DNA from: Parcubacteria group bacterium GW2011_GWC2_48_17
GTDB lineage: Bacteria > Patescibacteriota > Minisyncoccia > Phycocordibacterales > UBA10002
Assembly: GCA_001003605.1 (NCBI GenBank)
Contig: LCPL01000004.1
Coordinates: 1 to 54,158 of the forward strand
Reading direction: 5' to 3'
Length of the DNA stretch: 54,158 bases
The notes under the pieces are model-generated. The model was not told the origin of the DNA. It ran no database searches and saw nothing but the letters and a program-made list of their open reading frames with translations. The translations under genes were made by a program, and so were the position numbers. This document shows, piece by piece, positions 82 through 47,750 of the stretch (within the stretch, counting starts at the first letter, position 1; each line of letters begins with the position of its first letter).

Positions 82-657
82 TTATTCAACAAAGCCATTA
101 ATTATTATTCTTTCTTTCGCCTTTTCATTTTGATTTTTTAGCATTTGCTCACGGCCGTGAGCAAATGCTAAATTTCGACTCGGCGCCATTCCAAGAAATT
201 CTACCGATAGCACTTCCATTATTTTCACGGGCGGTTCAACTTTCTCGCCACGCCTTGCTTTTTTGTAGAGTGGCTCTCCACCGCGTTTGATCGCTGAGTA
301 CGCGGGAACGGGCAACGAAAGCTTCCCCACCATTCCTTCTAGAATCTTCTTAATTTCTGCCTCTTTTCCCTTCCATAATTCATAATTCATACTTCCTAAT
401 TCCTTCAGGATTTTGCCCGTAATATCACCTGTATCAGTAGACACTCCCAGTAAAATCTCGGCTTTGTATGTTTTGTCCAACTTCAGAAAATCCTGAAGCT
501 TCTTCGTTCCTTCGCCTACCCCGATAATCATGAGGCCTGTCGCCATTGGGTCAAGTGTGCCGGCATGGCCCATCTTTCGTACGCCTAACTTACGGCGCAA
601 AATTCGTATGCAATCAAAAGAGGTGATGCCCTGTGGTTTGTCGACAAGCAGAATCAT
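82..657 (-). CDS. truB: tRNA pseudouridine-55 synthase TruB, C-terminally truncated
   Basis: Makes pseudouridine 55 in the T loop of tRNAs. Seen: the catalytic motif GHAGTLDP (nucleophile Asp36), the KTYKA segment (Tyr64) and the VPAYSAIKRGGEPLYKKAR segment, all typical of TruB. Homology stops near residue 160. The last 30 or so residues are encoded by a perfect 36-bp palindrome and following AT-rich sequence, then TAA. The usual SxGTYIRxLxxDLG segment that completes the active site is not recognisable. A second short tandem insertion lies near residues 85-95. The protein is 191 aa against roughly 220-300 in the family. It may be inactive or rely on another pseudouridine synthase. Family assignment is firm; function is doubtful. 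Confidence 0.85.
   Translation of the reverse strand: MILLVDKPQGITSFDCIRILRRKLGVRKMGHAGTLDPMATGLMIIGVGEGTKKLQDFLKLDKTYKAEILLGVSTDTGDITGKILKELGSMNYELWKGKEAEIKKILEGMVGKLSLPVPAYSAIKRGGEPLYKKARRGEKVEPPVKIMEVLSVEFLGMAPSRNLAFAHGREQMLKNQNEKAKERIIINGFVE
137..172. repeat. perfect 36-bp palindrome inside truB (family P1)
   Basis: Arms of 18 bp beginning TTTAGCATTTGCTCACGG meet with no spacer. The same left arm recurs at 22957, where the right arm is split by another element. Here it is translated as part of the aberrant TruB C-terminus. Confidence 0.9.
371..405. repeat. short-tandem ATTCAT-type insertion in truB
   Basis: Repeats of ATAATTCAT/ATTCATACTT occur in frame in truB, adding residues around SMNYELW. 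Closely similar sequence is found in thrS (35083-35121) and between genes near 830-850. Confidence 0.6.
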
Positions 658-22520: not shown

Positions 22521-22625
22521 CCCAGCACCATTTTCACCAAACAATAAATTTCACTTGCTTAAGATAATGCGTGAAAAGGGCTTCACTTCCTGCAATTGAT
22601 TTCTGCTCCGCAAAATGGTGCTGGG
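22521..22625. repeat. CCCAGCACC element, copy A, in the rpoB leader
   Basis: Inverted ends CCCAGCACCATTTT and AAAATGGTGCTGGG enclose about 77 bp. The left neighbour ends TCTTCA and the right neighbour begins TCTTCC. A nearly matching direct repeat is present, but offset by one base from the pattern of the other copies. Confidence 0.75.
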
Positions 22626-22956: not shown

Positions 22957-23115
22957 TTTAGCATTTGCTCACGACCGCGAGTAAACCCAGCACCTTGACC
23001 ACAGGGCATTAACCCTGTGGTCAAGGCCAGCACTAACTTTCCGTTAGTGATGACCAAGGAAGACCCGAACCCTGCGCGGAGCGCAGGGCATTCAAGGTGC
23101 CAGGTAAATGCTAAA
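22957..23115. repeat. P1 palindrome split by a nested element
   Basis: The left arm TTTAGCATTTGCTCACG and the right end AAATGCTAAA belong to the same palindrome family as 137-172. They are separated by a 119-bp insertion (22986-23104). The right end supplies the stop codon of the metallopeptidase gene. Confidence 0.8.
22986..23104. mobile_element. CCCAGCACC element, copy B, nested, with TAAA flanks
   Basis: The ends are CCCAGCACCTTGA and TCAAGGTGCCAGG. Inside are three hairpins: CCTTGACCACAGGG/CCCTGTGGTCAAGG, CACTAAC/GTTAGTG and CCCTGCGC/GCGCAGGG. It is flanked on both sides by TAAA (22982-22985 and 23105-23108), which looks like a target-site duplication inside an older palindrome. No coding capacity. 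Confidence 0.7.
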
Positions 23116-25323: not shown

Positions 25324-25357
25324 TCTATTCCATTATTCGCGCGAATAATGGAATAGA
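25324..25357. repeat. 34-bp perfect palindrome downstream of arsR-like gene
   Basis: Two 17-bp arms beginning TCTATTCCATTATTCGC with no spacer. It has the same outer and central bases as 25677-25716 but ATT/AAT in place of ACC/GGT, so both arms changed together. Probably a terminator shared by the MFS and ArsR genes. Confidence 0.85.
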
Positions 25358-25676: not shown

Positions 25677-25716
25677 GTATCTATTCCACCATTCGCGCGA
25701 ATGGTGGAATAGATAC
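25677..25716. repeat. 40-bp perfect palindrome upstream of arsR-like gene
   Basis: Two 20-bp arms (GTATCTATTCCACCATTCGC) with no spacer. It lies between trmD and the ArsR promoter, so it may end trmD transcription or be an operator for the regulator. Confidence 0.85.
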
Positions 25717-41115: not shown

Positions 41116-41214
41116 CATATCTACGACTGTCCGTAAGGTTGAGCCTTTCGGTTCCGTAAGGTTCAACCTTACGGCTGACACGAAACAACGCCAGCCTTCT
41201 TGAGTTGGTGTTTA

Positions 41215-41272
41215 CCCATCCTCTTTCAACGCCCTGTGGTCAAGTCGAAGACAGTCGTAGACTGGTGCTGGG
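41215..41272. mobile_element. CCCAGCACC element, copy D, with TTTA flanks
   Basis: The right end GGTGCTGGG is intact; the left end CCCATCCTC is decayed. Internal AACGCCCTG is shared with copy C at 47702-47738. TTTA flanks both ends (41211-41214, 41273-41276). The 41116-41210 stretch holds CCGTAAGGTTGAGCC/GGTTCAACCTTACGG inverted repeats and no gene. Confidence 0.55.
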
Positions 41273-41309
41273 TTTACTTTTTATAAATTCTTAACTAAAC
41301 TATTAAAAT

Positions 41310-47664: not shown

Positions 47665-47701
47665 TGCAGGAAAAATGTGCGCGGTCTCCAGGAGAAATTT
47701 A

Positions 47702-47738
47702 CCCAGCACCTTGAACGCCCTGCGTAGAAGGTGCTGGG
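47702..47738. mobile_element. CCCAGCACC element, copy C, minimal form with TTTA flanks
   Basis: 37 bp: CCCAGCACCTT/AAGGTGCTGGG with a 15-base loop containing AACGCCCTG. TTTA directly flanks both ends (47698-47701 and 47739-47742). Smallest copy seen. Confidence 0.65.
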
Positions 47739-47750
47739 TTTACACGGGTT

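Follow-up and report, generated by a model that had tools for sequence, protein, structure and literature searches.

A 119-letter non-coding piece of DNA from a tiny-genome groundwater bacterium, Parcubacteria group bacterium GW2011_GWC2_48_17, is inserted into a dispersed palindrome, and it belongs to a mobile, non-autonomous element family. It lies in a stretch of 54,158 nucleotides, which as a whole is called the window below. Mobile DNA is usually said to be scarce in the reduced genomes of CPR bacteria. Here a CPR element family shows empty sites, deletions of the core and nested insertions, has a candidate enzyme, and occurs in a distant phylum too. The family stands out by the small size of its elements, by their terminal repeats and by its presence in two phyla, and searches of open-access literature brought up no description of these elements in Patescibacteria.

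A dispersed palindrome interrupted by a 119-bp element

At positions 22957-23115 of the window, TTTAGCATTTGCTCACGACCGCGAG (22957-22981) is followed by TAAA, 119 bp, a second TAAA and TGCTAAA (23109-23115). An earlier note on this DNA had claimed that the palindrome intact in truB at 137-172 is broken here by a TAAA-flanked 119-bp unit, and both the sequence and the rejoined 36-mer agree with this claim: the excision in silico of the 119 bp and one TAAA left 36 bp that match the intact palindrome at all but 3 positions. Moreover, a sister palindrome elsewhere in the same genome (C5:32101, locus L005), containing GAGTAAATGC, is the exact uninserted target, including TAAA. The features of this locus and the other copies in the genome are as follows.

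137..172, no strand: uninterrupted palindrome (paralogous empty site) in the truB ORF (TruB_N)
22521..22625, no strand: CCCAGCACC...GGTGCTGGG hairpin directly upstream of rpoB, flanks TTCA/TCTT, membership uncertain
22957..22981, no strand: 5' portion of the split 36-bp palindrome, which differs from the copy at 137-172 at 3 positions once it is rejoined through a single TAAA
22982..22985, no strand: TAAA flank (TTTA in the element's own orientation)
22986..23104, minus strand (the element's orientation): 119-bp non-coding multi-hairpin element, outer stem CCCAGCACCTTGA/TCAAGGTGCCAGG
22999..23020, minus strand: HP2, the element's right-end hairpin, CCACAGGGCATTAACCCTGTGG
23031..23049, minus strand: extra internal hairpin CACTAAC...GTTAGTG
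23070..23088, minus strand: HP1, the left-end hairpin, CCCTGCGC-loop-GCGCAGGG, same as the hairpin beside a sister species' IS200-type TnpA
23105..23108, no strand: second TAAA flank
23109..23115, no strand: 3' part of the palindrome
41215..41272, plus strand: 58-bp copy, TTTA at 41211-41214 and 41273-41276
47702..47738, plus strand: 37-bp copy with the core between HP1 and HP2 lost, TTTA at 47698-47701 and 47739-47742
C1:50871-50907 (outside the window): further copy, 37 bp, TTTA on both sides

The unit, whose ends on the window strand read CCCAGCACC...GGTGCCAGG (22986-23104), folds far better than its shuffles, with z = -8.4 as RNA and z -8.4 as DNA in its own orientation, and a search of the window against Rfam at the gathering threshold returned nothing but a tRNA.

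The 36-bp near-perfect palindrome TTTAGCATTTGCTCACGGCCGTGAGCAAATGCTAAA is itself dispersed in the genus, with 13 places in the scanned sequence of this genome and its congeners (window 137-172; L005, L006, L009, L015, L021, L046, L050, L054, L055, L108, L109, L155); the loci of the genus Y1_Tnp genes held no copy of it. The window also has two near-identical 34-bp palindromes (TCTATTCCATTATTCGCGCGAATAATGGAATAGA) at 25324-25357 and 25680-25713, the latter within a 231-aa ORF without a Pfam match.

Copies, flanks and empty sites

Exact CCCAGCACC sites number 12 in the genome, 8 of them in five paired-end elements and 4 unpaired. The equal flanks described in the earlier note hold for four of these five elements, which have TTTA or TAAA on both sides and include the two copies it had reported as TTTA-flanked (41215-41272 and 47702-47738); they do not hold for the fifth, at 22521-22625, with TTCA and TCTT. 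The hairpin at 22521-22625 (CCCAGCACCATTTT...AAAATGGTGCTGGG) has the stem of the mobile element and could be an old copy or a leader structure. When 294 kb of this genome (the window plus the first 20 kb of 12 contigs) was scanned for any 10-bp stem with equal 4-base flanks, TTTA was the flank of 1 of the 12 stems found; the predicted excess of matching flanks is thus thin in this genome alone, and the case is carried by the family-wide evidence. A modular hairpin family in the same genome (G000) shares the CCCTGCGC and CACAGGG hairpins and has left ends TTTATTGTGTCATCCC or TAGTAGATACGCTTAACGAAT and right end CTCTTAAACTTTA(C) (C1:50975, C23:7577, C20:6853, C3:40969 and C3:67646; L013, L014, L023, L025-L027); one of its copies adjoins the 37-bp element C1:50871-50907, TTTA being common to both.

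Matches to the element were obtained in 10 of the 61 genomes searched (the window's and 60 relatives), and the loose pattern TTTACCCNNNCACC occurs, in some cases by chance, in 9 of the 13 genus genomes. The main form in the relatives has the outer stem CCCCCACACCTTG...CAAGGTGTGGGGG. A genome-collection scan recovered the sister records Parcubacteria Greene0416_79, Ca. Taylorbacteria RIFCSPHIGHO2_01_FULL_51_15 and Ca. Taylorbacteria NC_groundwater_419 and, outside the Ca. Taylorbacteria genus, homologues in the 'Deltaproteobacteria' groundwater MAG NC_groundwater_1018 (G061), which has 22 matches at up to 96% identity, several of them 95-96% over the full length. The flanks of the G061 elements match related genomes at about 80-91%, so the G061 contigs are not stray Patescibacteria. 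The family could serve as a marker of DNA passing between episymbionts and the organisms around them. In the collection scan, six stretches of other organisms were set aside as chance-like, with no right end near by. Viral contigs contained neither an exact TTTACCCCCACACCTTG nor a relative of the TnpA described below.

The elements share one order of parts: TTTA, the left outer arm, a short spacer ending in GAATG or AAATG, HP1, a linker ending in TTCCTTG, HP2, TCAAGG with the right outer arm, and TTTAC. HP1 is CCCTGCGC-loop-GCGCAGGG, and HP2 is either CCGCAGGGTATAATGCCCTGCGG or a nested CCCCCACACC hairpin; on the 5' side, the outer stem is tagged by TTTA(C) and HP1 by GAAT/AAAT. Nearly all copies have perfect or near-perfect terminal inverted repeats of 9-13 bp, through which the outer arms pair. 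The sequence of these arms differs by subfamily (CCCAGCACC, CCCCCACACC, CCCCGTTACTTG), and their complementarity and the internal hairpins are kept. Judging from their sequences, the copies 37-44 bp long seem to have arisen by deletion between the AATGCCCTGCG repeats in HP1 and HP2. The pair GTTAGA...TCTAAC was considered as an integron attC-like site and was rejected as its polarity is wrong.

To describe the flanks, we used a catalogue of 42 elements (41 rows less one duplicate register, plus two window elements), which was assembled from the fetched loci by their matches to known stems and is not exhaustive. TTTA stands on both sides in 33/42 elements, and L107 becomes a 34th if its boundary is shifted by one base. 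On the left, where the flank entered the search pattern for some loci, TTTA was found in 39/42; on the right, where it never did, TTTA was found in 36/42 and TTTAC in 35/42. In L098 the left flank is TTTA but the right one is TAAA. The background frequency of TTTA per strand in G061 DNA is 0.7%, and TTTA/TAAA flanked 15 of the 31 equal-flanked stems in 248 kb of this DNA, in stretches fetched because each holds a copy. Moreover, none of the 41 elements that could be oriented from their inside was reversed. Palindromic insertion sites made up 5/42 at score 8, compared with 2.3% of 1,253 control TTTAC sites, and 1/42 at score 10, compared with 1.4%; a preference for palindromes, weak at the lower score and gone at the higher, was not retained. 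Insertions on the C-rich (presumed lagging) strand numbered 12 of 16 (p = 0.08), a bias that is suggestive only.

The rejoined flanks of eight insertions (L165, L170, L172-L177) were searched against 97 relatives of G061, and the empty sites that the earlier note expected in relatives appeared for two of the eight, L173 and L176. At L173, the alignment of G072 runs through the junction without a gap at that point and contains TTTAC once. At L176, G064 and G067 align across the junction, with TTTC and TGAT at the site. L177 is the same filled site in G069, and for L165 the right flank alone aligned. Additionally, the flanks of L151 rejoin into a perfect 21-bp inverted repeat, GTTCAATTT-ACA-AAATTGAAC. 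As insertion is shown for the family and the palindrome at 22957-23115 is restored by excision, the window copy is, by homology, an insertion. The transposition-like insertion proposed in the earlier note is therefore supported by the conserved 4-base flanks, the restored palindrome and the empty orthologous sites of two other copies. The target duplication that it added is unproven, since the orientation is fixed and, as in IS200/IS605, one TTTA(C) may belong to the element as its site of cleavage; the empty sites show one TTTA, which fits a target duplication and an element-owned motif alike.

A candidate transposase and the route of movement

The element probably moves by the IS200/IS605 route (single-strand, HUH/Y1) as a non-autonomous element, and sequence comparison makes an IS200-type Y1 transposase acting in trans its likely mover. 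Transposases were searched for by the family PF01797 (Y1_Tnp), genes of which are present in 12/13 genus genomes and in 10/11 of the genomes of G061 and its near relatives. G066 encodes an IS200-type TnpA in a 162-codon frame (148 aa from the chosen ATG), and on both sides of this gene stands CCCTGCGC-TCTTG-GCGCAGGG, the HP1 of the G061 and G066 elements. A TnpA homologue in G009 (Taylorbacteria), 65% identical to the G066 protein, has CCCTGCGC-TCC-GCGCAGGG upstream, which is the HP1 of the window element; its downstream hairpin was not recognisable. TTTA and HP1 are separated by 16 nt both in the window element and in the left end of the G009 TnpA. The two TnpA proteins score 109.6 and 105.9 bits with NCBIfam transpos_IS200 (cut-off 55), and their PDB matches are solved IS200-type transposases, including the ISHp608 transposase. 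Their motifs NHVH/DHLH and YIR[KN]QG fit the HUH/Y1 signature as it is given in the available part of PMC6006769. In the G066 gene region, TTTA occurs before ATGACAGCC and after TATTCACA, a weak sign in a single copy in AT-rich DNA. A possible guide tetranucleotide, GAAT, lies 5' of HP1 in the elements, but on the other strand at the right-end hairpin of the TnpA gene.

Three elements of 155-199 bp in the window's genome open with the left end of the G009 TnpA and close with ...GGCGAGCGGAG-TTTAC. Their left flanks are TTTA, TTTA and ATTA, and their right flank is TTTAC in 3/3, so that a single genome links HP1 with a left site of the TTTA type and with TTTAC at the right end.

This TnpA subfamily was absent among the PF01797 hits of the window's genome (two hits) and of G061, and its profile at E <= 1e-30 matched 5/393 relatives of G061, G066 alone being close. 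We found no autonomous copy with CCCC/GGGG ends and no split copy with an ORF between its ends, either in eight fetched stretches or among the TTTACCCCGTTA loci, and CCCAGCACC/CCCCCACACC ends were recognised beside no PF01797 gene. At an IS200 pseudogene in G071, TTTACCC and GGGTTTAC stand 572 bp from each other; this was judged a chance pairing because the hairpins of the pseudogene are ordinary IS200 ones.

According to the available parts of PMC6006769 and PMC7290912, the IS200/IS605 enzyme attaches to subterminal hairpins, at whose foot a guide tetranucleotide base-pairs with the target. By analogy, a TnpA dimer would bind HP1 (left) and HP2 (right) on one DNA strand and cut after TTTA(C) at both ends, and the excised strand would be pasted 3' of another TTTA(C). 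Such pasting would leave TTTA on both sides and a fixed orientation, with no classical target duplication. The element ends (CCCC.../...GGGG) would pair to give a cloverleaf, and if the right cleavage site equals the target, the product would mimic a target duplication, which fits the flanks seen. The window copy would then be an insertion into a TTTAC-bearing copy of the dispersed palindrome near rpoB. We infer both the mobilisation by this TnpA or a relative and the single-strand steps. Against this route stand the terminal inverted repeats of the elements and the TTTACCCCGTTA family, whose TTTACCCC...GGGGTTTAC ends enclose no HP1, so that HP1 may be a passenger. Further points against it are the few genomes with this TnpA subfamily, the position of GAAT on the other strand at the TnpA gene, the weakness of the strand bias and the TTTA/TAAA flanks of L098.

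The terminal inverted repeats, the equal 4-bp flanks in 33/42 elements and the empty sites with one TTTA would also be expected of a classical MITE, on whose terminal inverted repeats a DDE transposase makes staggered cuts that generate a 4-bp TTTA duplication of the target. This reading is nevertheless rather unlikely, as 0/41 elements are reversed relative to an asymmetric target, which is unexpected with near-identical ends, and as the outer stem varies (CCCAGCACC, CCCCCACACC, CCCCGTTACTTG) while the internal hairpins persist. The fixed orientation, the fixed TTTA(C) site and the subterminal hairpins fit IS200/IS605-type transposition better than a DDE MITE.

We regard as improbable that the element is of the REP type and moved by a RAYT (TnpAREP), even though Y1_Tnp genes are present in 12/13 genus genomes and a hairpin with an adjoining short tag is REP-like. 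The partner with matching ends that the earlier note envisaged did not emerge among such genes: RAYT-like genes exist, but the flanks read hold other palindromes, the GT[AG]G tag is absent at the hairpin feet, and the matching hairpin adjoins an IS200-type TnpA gene that scores as IS200 and below the REP_Tyr_transpos cut-off. The Taylorbacteria RAYT-like genes have their own distinct palindromes or repeats beside them (L120, L123, L128, L132, L133, L187, L189-L191), which suggests many parallel RAYT/REP systems in very small genomes.

An equally small chance is given to another oriented enzyme, an unknown recombinase that would read TTTAC beside a CCCC/GGGG stem, HP1 being a captured passenger. 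It would explain the TTTACCCCGTTA family, which has the same ends without HP1 at 18, 15, 8, 7 and 4 sites in five related genomes, with 0-1 reversed in each; yet no such enzyme was identified, and TTTAC likewise closes the three elements that carry HP1 but have different ends. Strong folding and intergenic position would suit an immobile structured RNA or terminator duplicated by chance rearrangement, an explanation that is hardly credible as it is contradicted by the empty orthologous sites, the near-identical dispersed copies and the presence in two phyla.

Known systems and related hairpin families

PATEs, the non-autonomous derivatives of IS200/IS605 in Haloquadratum and Halanaerobium (PMC3119063, PMC7290912), resemble the elements studied here in being short, non-coding and oriented, with subterminal hairpins, a fixed 4-5-nt left site and an IS200-type TnpA with the same hairpin; core-deleted minimal forms (here 37-44 bp) are a further likeness (PMC3119063, available part). 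The accessible text of PMC7290912 and PMC3119063 describes IS200/IS605 elements and PATEs as lacking terminal inverted repeats, an absence that for PATEs is part of the definition (PMC3119063), whereas the ends here form an inverted repeat, with the same TTTA(C) at both.

Haloquadratum SMR-A shares a length of about 110 bp, prominent inverted terminal repeats and some insertions into palindromes. It differs in its strong targeting of PATE/IS605 palindromes and in that the available part of the source reports no target duplication, whereas the elements here have TTTA flanks and 5/42 palindromic sites (PMC3119063). The mobilisation of SMR-A is called enigmatic in the same text (PMC3119063), and the present family may help to explain SMR-A and similar elements. 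REP/REPIN elements with TnpAREP (RAYT), as far as the available part of PMC6006769 describes them, are alike in the hairpin with a tag, the Y1 enzyme superfamily and the many intergenic copies; unlike them, the elements here have no GT[AG]G tag, and the resident RAYTs whose flanks were read have other cognate palindromes. MITEs of DDE-type IS share terminal inverted repeats and equal short flanks and differ from the strictly oriented elements here.

It is conceivable, if doubtful, that these elements form a separate class of single-strand mobile hairpin elements, TTTAC-CCCC...GGGG-TTTAC, with stems free to vary and read by fold and TTTAC tag instead of end sequence. Such a class would have passed between Patescibacteria of the episymbiont type and a lineage of Deltaproteobacteria, the two being perhaps symbiont and host.

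The TTTACCCCGTTA family is a second abundant one, TTTAC-CCCGTTAGA...TCTAACGGGG-TTTAC, with elements mostly 25-170 bp long, many of them 74-77 bp (L295-L344). Its left-end sites number 15 in G061, 4 in G063, 7 in G066, 18 in G068 and 8 in G069, with 0-1 reversed, and single sites occur in G000, G010 and G062. Fully palindromic copies at L296/L304 (G066:C8) and L318/L322 (G061:C79) have TTTA...TAAA instead of TTTA...TTTA. Simple hairpins of the form TTTAC-CCCCACACC...GGTGTGGGGG-TGTA or TATA were found in G003, G005 and G008 (L077, L088, L093, L095, L097), and these are perhaps the single-hairpin ancestors of the composite elements.
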